Source: Planctomycetota bacterium | GTDB lineage: Bacteria > Planctomycetota > UBA11346 | DNA length: 47,882 bases | Assembly (NCBI GenBank): GCA_025055595.1 | Contig: JANWWU010000037.1 | Span: 1-47,882, forward strand | Direction of reading: 5' to 3' | Shown: positions 5,547-36,556 of the stretch, piece by piece | How the letters are laid out: each line of letters begins with the position of its first letter | Position numbering within the stretch: the stretch's first letter is position 1 | Translations under genes and position numbers: made by a program | The notes under the pieces: generated by a model | What the model saw: only the letters and a program-made list of their open reading frames with translations | Told to the model about the DNA's origin: nothing | The model's database searches: none

Positions 5547-7811
5547 TCAATGGCAGGCCGAGTCGCTGCGCCACTCCCAGCGCCCGGGCGGGAAGCACCG
5601 CTCGTGCCGAATCCGCCCGTCGTCGATGACGCAGGTGAAGGCCTGGTCGCAGACGACGGCGTAGTGGCCGGGACCGTAGCAGAGGAGATCGATCGTCGCC
5701 TCGCCGAGCGGAATCCGCTGCAGGCCCCAGCCCGGCTGCGGGTGATGCCAGACGAGGCGGCGCTGGACGGCATCGGGCTCGATGCCGATGACGAGCTCGT
5801 AGAGCAGCGCGGTCGCCGGCAGCGCGCTCCAGCTGTAGTCGCGGCGCGCCCAGGTCCCGGGCTGGCTGCTGTCCGGGGCCCAGGTCTCCCACAGCGCGCC
5901 AGTCGCGCGATAGACCTCGGCGACGACCGCGAGGTGCCGCAGCGCGATGCGGCGCGCGAGCGCGAAGCGGCCGGCGCGCGCGAAGCCCCAGGCGACGGCC
6001 GCCGTCGTCGGCGCCCAGGTGCCGCCGCGCCAGTAGCCGCCCTGCGGGTCGTAATCCGGGCTGTCGGCGGCCAGGCTCGGCACTGGGTGGTGTCGCCAGA
6101 ACGCCGCGGGATCGCATAGCCAGCGCTCGAGGGCGGCGACGCGCTCCGGCGGCACCGCGCCGGTCAGCAGCGGCCAGAAGCCGGTGACCGTCTTGTGCGG
6201 GCTGTGCCCGCCGGCGGACAGCTGCGAGACGCAGTAGAACTGCGCCTGCTCCGACCACAGGCAGCGGTTCATCGCCGCGGCGATCGCGGCATGCTCTGCG
6301 CGCCACAGCGCGGCCTCCGCCTCGCGGCCGAGGGCCTGCCACATCTCGGCGATGATCCCGGCGGCCTGGGCCTGCTGCGCGGTCAGGCAGGGATAGCCGT
6401 CGCCGACCGCCGGCGAGTTGTCGAGCCCGCTCGCCAGGCCCGTCGTCCAGTAGGTGCCGTCGGGCAGGCGGCGATGGCGGGCGAGCCAGCGGTGGAGGGC
6501 GACCAGCGCCGGCAGCACGCGCGCCCAGCGGCCGCTGTCGCCGCTCAGGCGCGCCAGCTGCCATTCGGCCCAGGCGAGCAGCGGGGGATTCGGCGAGAAG
6601 TCCGGCTCGTAGGCGACCGGCAGCCCGTCGCGGGTGTCGGTCTCGCGCGGCAGGTAGCCGCCATCCATCTGCCGCGAATACAGGCAGTCGAGGGTGGCGG
6701 CGGCCGGCAGCGCGCGCCAGCCCCAGGCCGTGCACAGGGCGGTGAAGCAGGAGTCCCAGACGAACAGCGCCTCGCCGAACCCTTCGTGGCTGGTCGCGAG
6801 GTAGTCGTTGGGCAGGCCGCTGCCGGCGGCCGGGGCGCGGCGCAGGCCGAGCAGCATCCGCCAGGCGTGATCATGCACCGCCAGCAGGTGGGCCTGCTGC
6901 GGCGGCGCCACCGGCCGCGGGACGCGCGCCAAGAGCTCCTCGGCCGACGCCGGCCACGACAGCGTCCGCGGCTCGCGCACTGGCGCCCAGCGCCCGCGCG
7001 CCTCGTGCACCGGCACGCTGAGGCGCACGGGCTCGGATGGCGCCGGCGGCGGCGCTGCGGTCTCCGGCAGGCGGCTCCAGCCGAGCTCGAGGGTCGCCGC
7101 GAGCGTGCGGACGACGACGAGCTCCGGCTCGAGGCGCTCCTCGCAGGCGTCCTCGGCGCGCGCGGCGGGCAGCGGCTGCGCGGCGTCGGCGACCGGCAGC
7201 AGCAGGCGCTGGATGCCGGCGCGGCGATCGTCGTCGTCGCTGATGTCGCGCGCGGCATGCGGCGGCAGCGCGCTGCGCAGGCGCAGGCAGGGCAGCGGCC
7301 GGCGGCATGGGTGATCATCGTCGATGCTCGGGTCGGGCGTCGGCCAGGGCAGCGGGCGCAGCCACACCTGCTGCCACAGCACGCCATCCAGCCAGCACTG
7401 GGCGGGCGTGATGCGCAGCGCCGCCGCCAGCGCCGGCGCCGCCGGCTGCACCTCGGCGGTCAGCGCGATGCGATCGGGACGGGCGAGCAGGGCCGCGCGC
7501 AGCGCCGCGCGCTGGCGCGAGGGGCAATCGCGGTCGAGGCGTTCGGGCCACAGCGGACGCGGGCCATAGCGCACGCGCAGACGATGGCGGCCGGCGGACA
7601 GCGGCAGGACGAGCAGCGCGCGCAGGCGGCGCTCGTAGCGCCGCCACCACAGCGGTTCGTCGAGGACCGGCCACTCGTCGAGCCAGCAGGCCAGCGGCCG
7701 CGTGCTGTCGATCGCGATCACCACCGTGCCGGCGCGCGGGACGTTGATCGCGCCCGCGCTCTCCCCCGCCTCGCCGGAGAGCGGCGCCAGCTCCACCGGG
7801 CACTCGAGCAT
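5547..7811 (-). CDS. MGH1/GH63-like glycoside hydrolase
   Basis: A 754-residue protein. The first 270 or so residues have no recognisable domain and look beta-rich. The rest is an (alpha/alpha)6 barrel of the kind found in glucosidase/trehalase/mannosylglycerate-hydrolase families: FVWDSCFTAL, YLPRETDTRDGLP, GLDNSP, then GGYWRGGTWAPTTA and ALWETWAPD near the C-terminus. It probably releases glucose from an alpha-linked sugar or compatible solute; the substrate is unknown. I start at ATG 7811 because longer starts run back into the tRNA gene. No signal peptide is seen. The tandem EIIA genes follow in the same operon. Confidence 0.82.
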   Translation of the reverse strand: MLECPVELAPLSGEAGESAGAINVPRAGTVVIAIDSTRPLACWLDEWPVLDEPLWWRRYERRLRALLVLPLSAGRHRLRVRYGPRPLWPERLDRDCPSRQRAALRAALLARPDRIALTAEVQPAAPALAAALRITPAQCWLDGVLWQQVWLRPLPWPTPDPSIDDDHPCRRPLPCLRLRSALPPHAARDISDDDDRRAGIQRLLLPVADAAQPLPAARAEDACEERLEPELVVVRTLAATLELGWSRLPETAAPPPAPSEPVRLSVPVHEARGRWAPVREPRTLSWPASAEELLARVPRPVAPPQQAHLLAVHDHAWRMLLGLRRAPAAGSGLPNDYLATSHEGFGEALFVWDSCFTALCTAWGWRALPAAATLDCLYSRQMDGGYLPRETDTRDGLPVAYEPDFSPNPPLLAWAEWQLARLSGDSGRWARVLPALVALHRWLARHRRLPDGTYWTTGLASGLDNSPAVGDGYPCLTAQQAQAAGIIAEMWQALGREAEAALWRAEHAAIAAAMNRCLWSEQAQFYCVSQLSAGGHSPHKTVTGFWPLLTGAVPPERVAALERWLCDPAAFWRHHPVPSLAADSPDYDPQGGYWRGGTWAPTTAAVAWGFARAGRFALARRIALRHLAVVAEVYRATGALWETWAPDSSQPGTWARRDYSWSALPATALLYELVIGIEPDAVQRRLVWHHPQPGWGLQRIPLGEATIDLLCYGPGHYAVVCDQAFTCVIDDGRIRHERCFPPGRWEWRSDSACH

Positions 7812-29398: not shown

Positions 29399-29411
29399 AC
29401 CGGCACATACT
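29385..29411 (+). promoter_or_regulatory. Predicted hemerythrin-bpt promoter
   Basis: TTGTCG (29385-29390), 15-base spacer, CATACT (29406-29411), and 11 bases to ATG 29423. An alternative reading is TACTCA (29408-29413) with a 17-base spacer. No ribosome site is present. Confidence 0.4.
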
Positions 29412-29422
29412 CACCCCCACCT

Positions 29423-29812
29423 ATGAGCGCGTGGACCGCCGATCTCGCCACCGGCCACCCCGAGCTCGATCGCGATCACCGCGAGCTGATGGAGCTGATC
29501 GAGCAGCTGCGCGAGGCGGCGGCGGCCGGCGACGCCAAGGCGCGGCTGTCGCATGCGCTCGATCGCTTCCGCGAGCATGTGCAGCGCCACTTCCCCGAGG
29601 AGGAGCGCGACATGGAGGCCGCGGCCTACCCGGCCCTGGCGCGCCATCGCGAGGCGCACCGCGCGCTGACCGCGATGGTCAGCGAGCTCGCGGTCAAGGA
29701 CGCGGGCGGCGACACCGTGCTCTACAGCGAGGTCGAGCAGCTGGCGCAGGCCCTGCAGCGCCACATCGTCCTCGATGACCGCGCCTACGCGGCGCATCGG
29801 CGCGGGCGCTAG
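29423..29812 (+). CDS. Bacteriohemerythrin-family protein
   Basis: A 129-residue single-domain hemerythrin, a four-helix bundle that binds O2 (or NO) at a non-heme di-iron site. Iron-ligand motifs follow in order: ELDRDH (His19), HFPEEERDM, HREAH and HIVLDD near the end. It has no attached sensory or signalling domain, so it would act as a soluble O2 carrier, sink or sensor. The aminoacyltransferase gene starts one base after its stop, making a two-gene operon. Confidence 0.92.
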   Translation: MSAWTADLATGHPELDRDHRELMELIEQLREAAAAGDAKARLSHALDRFREHVQRHFPEEERDMEAAAYPALARHREAHRALTAMVSELAVKDAGGDTVLYSEVEQLAQALQRHIVLDDRAYAAHRRGR

Positions 29813-30635: not shown

Positions 30636-31742
30636 TCACTCGCTGGCGGCATCGAGCAGGTTGAGCTTGGCGTCCTTGATCTTGGCGACGATCTCCTCGC
30701 ACACCTTGGGGTTGTCGCGCAGGTACAGCTTGGCGTTCTCGCGCCCCTGCCCGAGCTTCAGGTCGCCGTAGGTGTACCAGGCCCCGCTCTTGCCGACGAC
30801 CTTGGCCAGCACGCCGAGGTCGAGCACCTCGCCGGTGTAGCTGATGCCCTCGTTGAACATGATGTCGAACTCAGCCTTGGTGAAGGGCGGCGCGACCTTG
30901 TTCTTCACCACCTTGACGCGGACGCGGTTGCCGACCGTCTTGTCGCCGTCGACGATCGAGGTGACGCGGCGGATGTCGAGGCGCACCGAGGCTGCGAACT
31001 TCAGCGCGCGGCCGCCCGGCTGGGTCTCCGGGCTGCCGTAGAGCACGCCGACCTTCTCGCGGATCTGGTTGATGAAGACGACGACGGCGCGGCTCTGGCT
31101 GATCGCCGCCACCAGCTTGCGCATCGCCTTGCTCATCATCCGCGCCTGCACGCCGACCGTCGAGTCGTCCATGTCGCCGTCGAGCTCGACCTTGGGGGTG
31201 AGCGCCGCCACCGAGTCGACGATGACGACATCGATGCCGTTGGAGCGCACCAGGGCGTCGCAGATGTCGAGCGCCTGCTCGCCGTAGCTCGGCTGCGAGA
31301 CGAGCAGCTCGTCGAGCTTGATGCCGACGCGCTCCGCCCAGCCGGGATCGAGCGCATGCTCGGCGTCGATGAAGGCGGCGATGCCGCCCTCGGCCTGGGC
31401 GCGCGCGGCGATCGACAGCGCGAGCGTCGTCTTGCCCGAGCTCTCGGGACCGAAGATCTCGACGATGCGGCCGCGCGGCACGCCGCCGACGCCGATCGCC
31501 AAGTCGAGGCCGAGGGAGCCGGTCGAGATCGCGCCGACCTCGACCTTCTCGACCTGGCCGAGGCGCATGATCGTTCCCTTGCCGTACTGCTTGTCGATTT
31601 GCTCGAGCGCCGCTTCGACGGCCTTGCGGCGCGCGGCGCTGTCGGGCGCGGACGATGCCGCTGCCGGCTCGGCCTTGCGGGTCGGGGCCGGCGCGGGCCC
31701 TTCCTTGCGCGGTGGGACGGGTGGGTTGGCAGCGTTGGTCAT
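30636..31742 (-). CDS. recA: Recombinase RecA
   Basis: A 368-residue strand-exchange protein that also triggers LexA self-cleavage. Motifs: KGTIMRLG, Walker [21 protein letters not shown], the [12 protein letters not shown] block and loop 2 region [20 protein letters not shown]. The first 37 residues are a Pro/Ala/Lys-rich extension absent from most RecA proteins, and the acidic C-terminal tail is short. It starts 11 bases after lexA with CGAGG as ribosome site, so it is transcribed from the lexA promoter. Confidence 0.99.
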
Positions 31743-31753
31743 GGCAGCCTCGG

Positions 31754-32371
31754 CTAACGGACCATGCGGACGACGAAGGACAGGACGCCGACGAGGCGGA
31801 CGCTGTCGAGCCGTGCGCGGGGGATGACGAGCGGCGGATAGGCGGGGTTCTCGGCGAGCAGCTCCAGGCCCTCGGCGGTGCTGCGCCAGCGCTTGAGCGT
31901 CGCCTCGCCGTCGACGACGACGGCGGCGATCTCGCCGTCGCGCACGGTGTCGCTCTGCTGGATGATCGCGATGTCGCCGTCGAGGATGCCGGCGTTGCAC
32001 ATCGAGTCGCCGCGCACGCGCAACGCCATGCGCCCGGGGCGCGCGACGATTTCGGGCAAGAACTCGCAGGCCTCCTCGATCGCGAGGATCGGCGAGCCGG
32101 CGGCGATCGCGCCGACGATCGGCACGCCGGCGCCGCTCTGCTTGCCGAGCGCCCGCCAGCCGGCCTCGGTCAGCTGGACATTGCGCTTCTTGCCGCGCTC
32201 GAGGCGCAGCAGGCCCTTGCGTACCAGGGCCTCGACATGCTTGGAGACCGCCGAGGGGAAGGCGTAGCCGAGCTGCAGCGCGACCTCGGCGCGGGTCGGG
32301 GGGCGGCCGGCGAGGGCGGCGTCGGCGAAGGCGGCGAGGACGCGCTGCTGGGCGGCGGGGAGCGCGCGCAT
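31754..32371 (-). CDS. lexA: SOS repressor LexA
   Basis: A 205-residue repressor of the DNA-damage response. The N-terminal winged helix spans residues 5-68 ([21 protein letters not shown] is the recognition region). The linker cleavage site is Ala91-Gly92 in GAIAAGSP, with catalytic Ser123 (GDSM) and Lys160 (TLKRW) in the S24 peptidase fold. It is first in an operon with recA. The ATG sits 6 bases after a -10, so its mRNA is predicted to be leaderless. The promoter carries a direct repeat that may be its own operator. Confidence 0.97.
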
Positions 32372-32509: not shown

Positions 32510-34138
32510 ATGTCGGACGAGCTGATCGAGCGCGCGAACAATGCGCGGCGGCTGGCGCTGATGATCGTCGAGAATCGCAGCGGGCCGGCGCTGGCGGCGG
32601 CGATCCCGCACCTGCACGAAGCGGCGAGCCTGTTCGCCAGCGCCGGCCGTCCGGTGCGACAGGCCGAATGCCTGATCGACTGCGCGCGGGTGCATGAGCG
32701 GCTCGGCCAGCACCGCGAGGCCGCGAGCGCCTACCGCGAGGCGCTGCCGCTGGTCGAGGACGAGAGCGATCTGTCGCTGGCGATCGCCGCGGCGAGCGGC
32801 GCCGGCCAGGCGCTGCTCGCCCTGCACGACAGCGAGCAGGCGACGGCGCTGTTCGAGCGCGCCGCGGCGCTCGCCGACCAGGTCAACGACCACCTGCGCC
32901 TGGCGCAGGTGCGGCTCGACCTCGCGCGCTGCCTGCTGGCGCGCGGCGAGGCCGCGGCGGCGCGCTCGATCGCCACCGCGGCGCTGGCGACCTTCTCGGC
33001 CTATCGCCAGACGCAGCAGCGCGCGGTGTGCCTCGAACGCCTCGCCGAGGCCGCCTTCCAGGCCGGCGACCCCGCGGAGGGCGCGCGCCTCTACCGCGAG
33101 GCCGCCGAGCAGCTGCACGAGCTCGGCCGGATCGCCGAGGCCGACGCCGTGCTCGCGCGCTGGGCCGATGTCGAGCGCGATCGCGCGGCCTACGACAACG
33201 CGCTGCGCATCGACCGCGAGCGGATCGCCCGCCACGAGGCGAGCGGCAACCGCGCCCTGCTCGCCCAGGCCTTCCTGCATCTTGGGCTGATCGAAGCCAA
33301 GCGCCGCGATCAGGCGGCGGCGCTGGCGGCCTTCCAGCGCGCGCGCGCGCTGTGGGAGGCCCTCGAGGATCAGAGCAGCATGGCGCGCGCCGACTACCAC
33401 ATCGCGGCGGCGCTGATCGCGCTCGGCGAGCGCGACGACGCGCGACAGCGCCTGGAGCAGGCCGCCGCCCTGGCCGCCGCCGCCCGCGATCACCGCACCG
33501 AGGCCGAGGCCCTGGCGTCGTTGGTCGCGGTGCTGCGCGCGGCCGGCGACGAGGCGGGCACGGCGGCGACCGTCCAGCGCTGGGTCGAGGCGTTGCGCGC
33601 CAGCGGCGATCGCGAGCAGGAGATCGCGGCGCTCGGCGAGCTCGCCGAGCTCGGACGGCGCACCGGCCGGCTCGATCGGGCCGAGGAGGCGCTGCGCGAG
33701 GTGATCGCGCTGTGCCAGGGCGATCCCCAGCGCTACCGGGTGCAGCTCGTCGATGCCCACCACCACCTCGGCGTCCTGATGGCGCGCCGCGGCGATCTCG
33801 CTGGCGGCCTCGAACAGCTGCAGCGGGCCTTGGCGCTGCTCGGCGAGATTCCGGCCTACGCCCTGCGCGCCCACCTGCGCTATCGGATCGGCAACTGCCT
33901 GCTGCGCCTGGGGCGCGCCCGCGAGGCCCAGGAGCAGCTCCAAGAAGCGCTCGCCGCCTGCCCCGACGATAAGCTGCGCGCGCGCATCCTCGTCGATCTC
34001 GGCAACGCCCAGGCGCTGCTGGGACAGGAGGAGTCGGCGATCGACTTCTTCGAGCAGGCGGCGCGGGTCGCCGAACAGCAGGGCGATGTGCGGGCGACCC
34101 AGATCATCCGCCGCCAGAGCGGCGCGCTCAAGCGCTAG
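32510..34138 (+). CDS. Large TPR-repeat protein
   Basis: A 542-residue protein built almost wholly of about 12 helical tetratricopeptide-type repeats (for example EAASAYREALPLVEDESDL and ALAAFQRARALWEALEDQS). No signal peptide and no catalytic or DNA-binding domain is seen, so it is a cytosolic scaffold. A near-perfect GAGGAGG sits 5 bases before the ATG, which contrasts with the leaderless genes around it. It is divergent from lexA but has its own region of 138 bases. Function is unknown. Its 3' end overlaps the NifU-like gene by 11 bases. Confidence 0.88.
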   Translation: MSDELIERANNARRLALMIVENRSGPALAAAIPHLHEAASLFASAGRPVRQAECLIDCARVHERLGQHREAASAYREALPLVEDESDLSLAIAAASGAGQALLALHDSEQATALFERAAALADQVNDHLRLAQVRLDLARCLLARGEAAAARSIATAALATFSAYRQTQQRAVCLERLAEAAFQAGDPAEGARLYREAAEQLHELGRIAEADAVLARWADVERDRAAYDNALRIDRERIARHEASGNRALLAQAFLHLGLIEAKRRDQAAALAAFQRARALWEALEDQSSMARADYHIAAALIALGERDDARQRLEQAAALAAAARDHRTEAEALASLVAVLRAAGDEAGTAATVQRWVEALRASGDREQEIAALGELAELGRRTGRLDRAEEALREVIALCQGDPQRYRVQLVDAHHHLGVLMARRGDLAGGLEQLQRALALLGEIPAYALRAHLRYRIGNCLLRLGRAREAQEQLQEALAACPDDKLRARILVDLGNAQALLGQEESAIDFFEQAARVAEQQGDVRATQIIRRQSGALKR

Positions 34139-34943
34139 GCGCCGCCGCCAGCTCCTCCACCGTCAGCCCCGCCGCCACCTCGGCGCGCAGCACGCGCTCG
34201 AGCTGCGTCAGCAGCGACCGCCGCTGTTCGTCGCTCAGGCCGTGGCAGCGCACGCGCAGCCGCTCGCCGTCGAGGTCCCACAGCTCGAGGCGGCCGCCGT
34301 GCGCCGCGAACTCGCTCTGCAGGCGCTGCTCGACGACACGGGCGATCTGCTTGAGCAGCGCGATGCGGCCGCGGCGCGGCGGCGGCGGCGCGACGGCGGC
34401 GTTCAGCAGCCGCGGGATGTCGGCGCGGCAGCTGCCGCAGCCGGTGCCGGCGCCGGTCGCGTCGACCACCGCCTGCACCTCGGAGAGGCCCATGATGCGG
34501 ATCGACTCGCGGACCGTGTCCTCGGCGATGCCGTGGCAGCGGCACAGCAGCGGCGCGAACTCCTCGTCGCCCTCGGGCAGCTCGCCGTTCCACGAGGCGA
34601 TGGCGACGCGCAGCGCCTCCAGGGCCCAGATGAAGGCCGGCAGCTCGCAGGGATCGAGGCCGCCGAGGTGCTGGCAGAGGTCGGCGGCCGTCAGGCGCTG
34701 CGCCTCGGCGAGCGTGCGCCCGGGCAGCAGCTCGCAGACGACGGAGGCCGCCGCCACCTGCTCGCTGGCGTTGAAGACCTGGAAGCGCGCCTCGCTGATC
34801 CGCTCGCCTTCGAGGCGCAAGTAGAGCCGCAGGGCGTCGCCGGCGAGGATCGAGCCGACATCGCCGCTCAGCGTCGGGTTGAGCATCTTGCCGAGATGCC
34901 GCGGATGGCGGCGATGGTCCTCGAGCAGCGCGCGCGGATCCAT
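34128..34943 (-). CDS. Degenerate NifU-like protein with intact [2Fe-2S] domain
   Basis: A 271-residue protein with the three-part NifU layout: IscU-like scaffold (residues 1-120), BFD-type ferredoxin (130-180) and NifU C-terminal domain (190-260). Against NifU, all three scaffold cysteines have become alanine (Ala34 in ILAGDALRL, Ala59 in FNASEQ, Ala103 in LPAFIW), though Asp36 is kept. The ferredoxin keeps Cys134, Cys136, Cys169 and Cys172. The C-terminal CxxC is missing (CHGLSDEQRR). It therefore probably does not build clusters by the usual route and may be an electron carrier or regulator. No nif or isc gene is near. Confidence 0.88.
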   Translation of the reverse strand: MDPRALLEDHRRHPRHLGKMLNPTLSGDVGSILAGDALRLYLRLEGERISEARFQVFNASEQVAAASVVCELLPGRTLAEAQRLTAADLCQHLGGLDPCELPAFIWALEALRVAIASWNGELPEGDEEFAPLLCRCHGIAEDTVRESIRIMGLSEVQAVVDATGAGTGCGSCRADIPRLLNAAVAPPPPRRGRIALLKQIARVVEQRLQSEFAAHGGRLELWDLDGERLRVRCHGLSDEQRRSLLTQLERVLRAEVAAGLTVEELAAAPSA

Positions 34944-35038: not shown

Positions 35039-36556
35039 ATGCGTTGGGCGCTCTGGGCCGTGGCGGCTGCGGTGTTGGCTGGGGAGCGGCTGCCGCTGCC
35101 CGGCTGGCCCGTGCCGGGAGACCGCCCGCTGCCGGCCATCGGCTGGGCGGCGGTGCCGGGCGCGGTGCTCGCCCTCGACGCCGACGGCGCGGTGCGCCGC
35201 CGCGTGCCGCTGGCCCCCGGCGGCCAGGCCTGGATCGGGCGCGGGGGGGTCCTGGTCGCCGACGACCGCGGCCTGCGCTGGCTGGACGACGCCGGCAGCG
35301 AACGCCGCCTGCCGCCGCTGCCGCCCGGCGTGCAGCCGCTCGGCGTCGACGGCGCGGCGGCATTCTTCGCGCGGGACCAGATCGGTTGGCGCCTGGACCA
35401 GGGCGGCGCGCGGCAGCACCTGGTCCTGCCCGAGCCGCCGATCGGCTGCCCGCTCGCCTGCGGTCCTGCGAGCCTGTGGTTGACGATGCACCACCTCGTG
35501 TGGTGGGACGGCGAGCTGCAGGTCGCGCACCGCCACGGCCTGCCGGCCGGCCGGGGCTGGAGGCTCGCCTGGGCCGAGGGCGAGCAGCCGGTGATCCTCG
35601 CTCCCGACGGCCGGCTGTGGCTCGTCCCGCCCTACGCGCCGGGAGCGGACGACGAGCGGCTGGGCCGGGAGCCGCAGCCGCCTGCCGACTCCGAGGCGGC
35701 GTGGCGCGCCGCGCTGCGCCGCGGCGCGTGGAGCGAGGCGGCACGGCTGGCCGCGACCGCGGAGCAGCGCGCCGCCGTCGCCTGGTATGCCGGCTCCCCC
35801 TCGCCCGCCGCGCCGGCGGCGCTGATCCCCGGCGAGGCGAGCTGGTGGTCGCTGCCGAGCGAGGCCTGGCCCTGGGGCTGCGCGCCGTGGGCCGGCTCCC
35901 TGCTGCCGCGCGTGCCGACAGCGCGCGCCGCCGCCCCGCTGGCCGACGCCGCGCAGCCGGCCGCGGAGCAGCCGGCGCTGCGCGCCCTGCCGCAGGGCCT
36001 GCTGCGCGGCGCCCTGAGCTGGCGGATCAGCGATGACGGCGAGCGGGTGACGCTGGCCTGCCGCGACGGCGAGCGGGAGCGCTGGTTCCGCCGCTGGCTG
36101 TCGCCCGAGGAGCTGCAGGCCCCGGCCTGGTCCTTGAGCTGGCAGAGCGGCTGGCTGGTGGTCGTCGAAGGCGACGCCCGCCTGCTGATCGTCGATGCCG
36201 GAACCGGGCGCTTGGCTGTCGACCTGCGTCCGCGCCGCGCGCCGCTGGCGCCGGGCCGGCTCTGGCCGCTGCCCGGCGGGGCCCTCTGCCTCGCGCCGCC
36301 GGGCCGCGAAGATCGCCTGATCTGGATGCTCGGCGACGAGGAGCTCGTCGAGCCGCTGCCGGAGCGCGCGCGCTGGCTGCTCGTCCTGCCCGACGGCGAG
36401 GCCTGGCTCGCCCTGCGCGATGGCCGGGCGTTCGCCGCCCGCGCTCCCGGGCAGTGGCGGGAGCTCGCCTTGCCGCCGGCGCTGCTGGCCGCCGAAGGCC
36501 CCGAGCTCGGCGAGGGCGGCATCCTCGCCGAGGGCCGTCTGTGGCGCTGGCGTTGA
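35039..36556 (+). CDS. Trp-rich secreted protein of unknown function
   Basis: A 505-residue protein with a short hydrophobic N-terminus (RWALWAVAAAVLAG) likely to direct export. About 34 tryptophans (near 7%) recur in short beta-type units such as GRLWLVP, ADDRGLRWLDD and EAWLALRDGRAFA, spaced as in beta-propeller or PQQ-like repeat proteins. No exact family is recognised. A less regular middle segment (residues 220-320) is Ala/Pro-rich. lpxH follows 36 bases later on the same strand; a functional link is not clear. Confidence 0.72.
   Translation: MRWALWAVAAAVLAGERLPLPGWPVPGDRPLPAIGWAAVPGAVLALDADGAVRRRVPLAPGGQAWIGRGGVLVADDRGLRWLDDAGSERRLPPLPPGVQPLGVDGAAAFFARDQIGWRLDQGGARQHLVLPEPPIGCPLACGPASLWLTMHHLVWWDGELQVAHRHGLPAGRGWRLAWAEGEQPVILAPDGRLWLVPPYAPGADDERLGREPQPPADSEAAWRAALRRGAWSEAARLAATAEQRAAVAWYAGSPSPAAPAALIPGEASWWSLPSEAWPWGCAPWAGSLLPRVPTARAAAPLADAAQPAAEQPALRALPQGLLRGALSWRISDDGERVTLACRDGERERWFRRWLSPEELQAPAWSLSWQSGWLVVVEGDARLLIVDAGTGRLAVDLRPRRAPLAPGRLWPLPGGALCLAPPGREDRLIWMLGDEELVEPLPERARWLLVLPDGEAWLALRDGRAFAARAPGQWRELALPPALLAAEGPELGEGGILAEGRLWRWR

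Follow-up and report, generated by a model that had tools for sequence, protein, structure and literature searches.

The window, a 47,882-nucleotide stretch of planctomycete DNA, encodes a NifU-family protein (paralogue A) that has lost its scaffold cysteines and its C-terminal CxxC and has kept the cysteines of its ferredoxin. It is a real, conserved and unusual NifU-family variant and one of a wider set of proteins with cysteine-less U domains. We interpret it as a NifU-derived redox protein whose U domain would act as a docking module and whose most likely task is to supply electrons to the SUF machinery, a reading that we hold at a little less than even confidence.

Pfam searches assign paralogue A an N-terminal NifU_N domain (7.7e-21), a Fer2_BFD domain (3.6e-13) and, under its cut-off, a C-terminal NifU domain (6.7e-5). 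We refer to the Cys-free NifU_N (IscU-type) domain as U* and to the Nfu-like C-terminal domain without CxxC as Nfu*; domain searches yield no DNA-binding or signaling domain in the protein. Translation and alignment with canonical NifU place alanine at all three scaffold positions (A34, A59, A103), as the original prediction had read them by eye, and its companion observations, that the CxxC segment is gone and that the BFD cysteines C134, C136, C169 and C172 are intact, hold up in the alignment. The catalytic aspartate is kept as D36. An AlphaFold model with a mean pLDDT of 83.4, built from a shallow input alignment of 17 rows and poorly predicted at residues 19–34, matches IscU structures, the best being E. 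coli IscU in complex with IscS (3lvl_A, E 5.3e-07); U* is accordingly modeled as an IscU/NifU_N fold bearing A34, D36, A59, P102, A103 and W106. Paralogue A has the U-BFD-Nfu order, BFD cysteines, predicted IscU fold and aspartate of NifU (TIGR02000, Azotobacter vinelandii type), but differs from it in having no scaffold cysteines, no Nfu CxxC and no adjoining nifS, and at 135 bits it does not reach the curated cut-off of 273.3 for NifU_proper in NCBIfam. We recognized no cysteine desulfurase near the window gene or near the orthologues examined. SufU and IscU, which are defined by their ligand cysteines (Zn/persulfide or cluster), share the NifU_N fold with paralogue A, whereas the latter lacks those cysteines and carries the extra BFD and Nfu* domains.

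Table 1. Coordinates of paralogue A and its domains in the window and of the two further cysteine-less paralogues in the same genome
Feature	Location	Strand	Basis or remark
CDS of Cys-less NifU paralogue A, 271 aa	34128..34943	-	ATG at 34943, stop included; translation
U* domain, residues 1-120	34584..34943	-	Pfam NifU_N, AlphaFold match, constraint
BFD-like [2Fe-2S] ferredoxin domain, residues 132-184	34392..34550	-	Pfam Fer2_BFD; four Cys invariant 17/17
Nfu* domain, residues 193-262, without CxxC	34158..34367	-	Pfam NifU below cut-off
Paralogue B (C81)	L039 9122-9835		Directly before sufB, sufC, sufD, sufS
Paralogue C (C12)	L040 9811-10536		Cys-less U domain and intact Nfu domain (CGSC)

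Orthologues of paralogue A, with the common start MTPAELLDDH, occur in 17 of the 23 family genomes, including all 14 with a completeness of 79% or more. Among these 17 proteins, position 34 is Ala, Val or Ser and position 103 is Pro, Ala, Val or Leu, never Cys in either case, and position 59 is Ala or Gly in 11 and Cys in six, so that cysteine fills 6 of the 51 scaffold positions. The expectation that the alanines are fixed in a clade therefore stands for the loss of cysteine at 34 and 103 (17/17) and falls short at 59, and the replacements are not always alanine. Close relatives that retain the scaffold cysteines would speak against a changed role, and the 17 family orthologues provide none with the set. 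The BFD cysteines are retained at 68 of 68 positions; the Nfu cysteines are found at 0 of 34, and the CxxC is absent from every member. A sequencing or frame error was considered and rejected, since the same loss is common to 17 separate genomes. Asp36 is kept in 14 members and replaced by Arg in three. Pro102 and Trp106 are invariant (17/17) where canonical NifU has its His-Cys region, with Pro102 standing in the place of the ligand histidine. The mean pairwise identity is 0.549 for U*, 0.534 for the BFD domain and 0.363 for Nfu*, the fastest-evolving of the three domains. For three pairs within the genus to which the window belongs, U* has a dN/dS of 0.16–0.17, a value that denotes purifying selection. 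Constraint on the cysteine-less U domain equals that on the ferredoxin, and the domain is not decaying; this constraint, together with the invariant Pro102 and Trp106, implies that U* is conserved for something besides cluster ligation. The earlier suggestion that the selective loss of ligands marks a changed role is supported by its fixation in the family and by the constraint on the domain.

The window gene belongs to a metagenome-assembled genome (MAG) of 2.26 Mb that is 90% complete (G000); as all of the genomes are incomplete MAGs, every absence reported here applies to recovered sequence. An intact scaffold elsewhere in G000, for which the original prediction had suggested looking, was sought and rejected: the NifU_N search returned three proteins, each without scaffold cysteines, and no intact NifU, IscU or SufU in this 90% complete MAG. 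Paralogue B, which keeps neither the ferredoxin nor the Nfu carrier site and whose predicted model is also IscU-like, is the gene immediately before sufB in G000 and in sixteen other genomes of the family (17 in all), and in G021 one open frame spans paralogue B and SufB. The latter (G021:C549, L085 1471-3291) is an apparent natural fusion in which a Cys-less NifU_N/Nfu* protein is joined to SufB through a Pro/Ala-rich linker. Paralogue C follows sufE in G000 and is related to B over its length (hhalign E 5.6e-15). The profile comparison of A with B aligns 55 columns only, and their kinship is suggested by the Pfam NifU_N match and the predicted fold. SufB, SufC, SufD and SufS are encoded on one G000 contig and SufE on another; the scaffold system identified in this genome is SUF, and no A-type carrier was matched by PF01521. 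Two further NifS/IscS-type desulfurases are present, so that SufS is not the sole sulfur mobilizer in G000.

These observations lead us to favor electron donation to SUF as the role of paralogue A. Its scaffold sites would no longer build or carry clusters, U* would be kept as a docking or dimerization module, and the BFD domain would hold a permanent [2Fe-2S] cluster, as is suggested by the laboratory variant NifU C35/62/106/272/275A (CA-NifU), in whose core domain an EPR-active [2Fe-2S] cluster persists (PMC13382767). From this cluster, single electrons may pass from paralogue A to SufBCD or SufS-SufE, where they would serve to reduce persulfide or to couple clusters. Paralogue A would then do what the central cluster of NifU is proposed to do, but apart from a NifU scaffold. 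Cluster building on NifU needs that central cluster (PMC13382767). The electron donors to SufBC2D and to NifU are given as unknown in PMC8593673, where the NifU [2Fe-2S] cluster features as a proposed source. The main argument is complementary retention: the functions of NifU appear to be split over three U* paralogues, with the ferredoxin in A, the Nfu carrier site in C, and neither in B, which is found before SufB or fused to it. The same reading is favored by the invariance of the BFD cysteines amid the loss of scaffold and Nfu cysteines, by the presence of SUF where intact NifU/IscU/SufU and A-type carriers were not found, by the position of B before sufB and its fusion to SufB in G021, by the constraint on U* with its invariant Pro102 and Trp106, by the IscU-like fold predicted for A and B, by the published CA-NifU cluster and the open question of the SUF donor, by the precedent of NfuA, in which a degenerate domain devoid of ligands serves targeting (PMC8593673), and by the occurrence of A in the most complete genomes. 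It also draws on G009, a genome of the same family at 77% completeness in which SufB, A, B and C were all undetected and a canonical IscU-BFD with intact ligands adjoins a desulfurase; as one genome at that completeness, it is suggestive only that A, B and C go with SUF. Of the roles offered by the original prediction, electron transfer and pairing with the real Fe-S machinery are the best fit, given that SUF was found and that the two further Cys-less paralogues belong to or resemble its parts.

The reading has two main weaknesses. A conserved operon or conserved neighbors were sought for the gene for paralogue A and not found, and the gene lies outside the suf operon in every genome examined. 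In addition, G000 encodes another small [2Fe-2S] ferredoxin candidate (C87). The co-occurrence of A with SUF within one family could also stem from shared ancestry in a set of incomplete MAGs, among them G018, which has A and C and no recovered SufB. G001 has an intact SufU-like protein besides A, B and C. The broader proposal that NifU has been dismantled and rebuilt onto SUF, with U* as a docking module on three paralogues and A as the dedicated SUF electron donor, strikes us as possible, if somewhat doubtful.

The ferredoxin of paralogue A might instead hold cargo: its [2Fe-2S] cluster would be loaded by SUF and passed to targets that U* and Nfu* recognize. This has a precedent in NfuA, a degenerate A-type domain joined to Nfu, where the degenerate ligand-less domain serves targeting (PMC8593673), and paralogue A likewise retains a ligand-less assembly domain; with no A-type carrier found in the genome, the carrier role may also be vacant. 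Unlike NfuA, however, paralogue A lacks a working Nfu site, and it has a BFD ferredoxin as its live center and a degenerate domain of the U-type rather than the A-type. The NfuA logic fits paralogue C better, where an intact CxxC lies behind a degenerate domain, albeit a U-type one, and C already supplies a carrier. The published account of NifU, moreover, treats its BFD cluster as a permanent catalytic center that is not handed on (PMC13382767), and we consider a carrier role unlikely.

Redox sensing or regulation had been raised alongside electron transfer in the original prediction, and paralogue A could be an iron or redox sensor through which the SUF machinery, or a transcription factor, is informed of cluster status. 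The union of a redox-type domain with an assembly-derived fold and the solitary position of the gene are compatible with this idea, but the searches described above gave no DNA-binding or signaling domain and no conserved regulatory neighbor, and the architecture is that of an assembly protein; we judge such a role improbable. Much the same holds for a ferritin-associated ferredoxin that reduces stored iron for release. Bfd itself is small, consists of a single domain and serves bacterioferritin; paralogue A has a BFD-type domain with the same CxC...CxxC ligands, in a genome with genes for a ferritin and a Dps-like protein. Their sequences read as a non-heme ferritin and a Dps, however, no bacterioferritin, the known partner of Bfd, was recognized in G000, and the retained, constrained U* would go unexplained, all of which makes this role improbable as well.

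Continued cluster assembly, through Asp36 and non-Cys ligands or with cysteine donated in trans by a partner, could draw on the aspartate kept in most members and on the six that keep Cys59; it is very unlikely in view of the members with Arg36, the consistent absence of cysteine at 34 and 103, the exchange of the ligand histidine for proline and the loss of the Nfu site too. A decaying, functionless NifU relic, to which the loss of five ligands might point, is strongly disfavored by the low dN/dS of U*, the four invariant BFD cysteines and the presence of A in all 14 of the most complete genomes.

Beyond what had been predicted, the cysteine-less pattern is phylum-wide and recurs in the suf operon. 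Our survey of canonical and degenerate NifU within Planctomycetota identified Cys-less U domains with all four BFD cysteines in seven families, f1 (17), f22 (15), f18, f39, f46, f80 and f82, and NifU-BFD proteins with every ligand in 13. In G026, G027, G038 and G058, all from outside the window's family, sufB is preceded by a gene for a U* protein, and in the last three of these the Nfu site is intact. Through such sufB-linked proteins, five families show a tie between the Cys-less U domain and SUF. A profile scan of genome contigs with the family profile matched only relatives of the window's family. In a tree built without the scaffold columns, one or two state changes are required and f1 forms one clade (support 100/99), and the Cys-bearing L150 (f81) is placed, weakly supported, among the Cys-less sequences. 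A single origin of the cysteine loss was considered and not established, as the tree fits one or two origins alike and the placement of L150 is weak.

In f22 (L047 9625-11855; L117-L129), the NifU proteins lack the three scaffold cysteines and have intact BFD and Nfu sites, the latter with its CxxC, and nifS adjoins the gene in 13 of 14 loci tested; the Cys loop and the PLP lysine are both present in the one nifS product whose sequence was read completely. NifS may charge the Nfu domain directly in this family, and the partner of a Cys-less NifU need not be SUF everywhere. Two further arrangements were observed. In G064, a Cys-less U-BFD (C79, L156 around 6100-6624) lies early in an open frame of 801 residues, a putative fusion whose C-terminal part is long and low-complexity, possibly with repeats. 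In G192 of family f80 (L164, L153), U*-BFD-Nfu and U*-Nfu proteins, both without scaffold cysteines, occur in one genome.

The Cys-less NifU described here is natural and fixed in a family; its laboratory equivalent, CA-NifU, in which the same five ligands are gone and the central [2Fe-2S] domain is kept, was already published, having been engineered to study cluster delivery by GrxD (PMC13382767). No natural Cys-less NifU or IscU is described in the literature searched, whose coverage left out most subscription papers. An IscU-type domain can persist with no cluster ligand at all, as it does in a minimum of seven Planctomycetota families; the notion of a degenerate carrier domain, familiar from NfuA, thereby extends to U-type scaffolds. 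Were these proteins annotated from the names of their domains only, they would pass as NifU, and their organisms would seem to have a scaffold that is in fact absent. Paralogue A is also a concrete, testable candidate for the SUF electron donor, whose identity has been called an open question (PMC8593673).

Three neighboring regions of the window are recorded here. Divergent to the gene for paralogue A lies a gene (35039-36556, +) for a 505-residue protein with no Pfam match, and in G001 a similar-looking gene (L048 12204-13199) likewise stands divergent to the orthologue. A hemerythrin-domain protein (PF01814, 2.4e-15) is encoded at 29411-29812 (+), and a LexA-like gene with recA directly behind it, the two probably forming one unit, occupies 30636-32371 (-).
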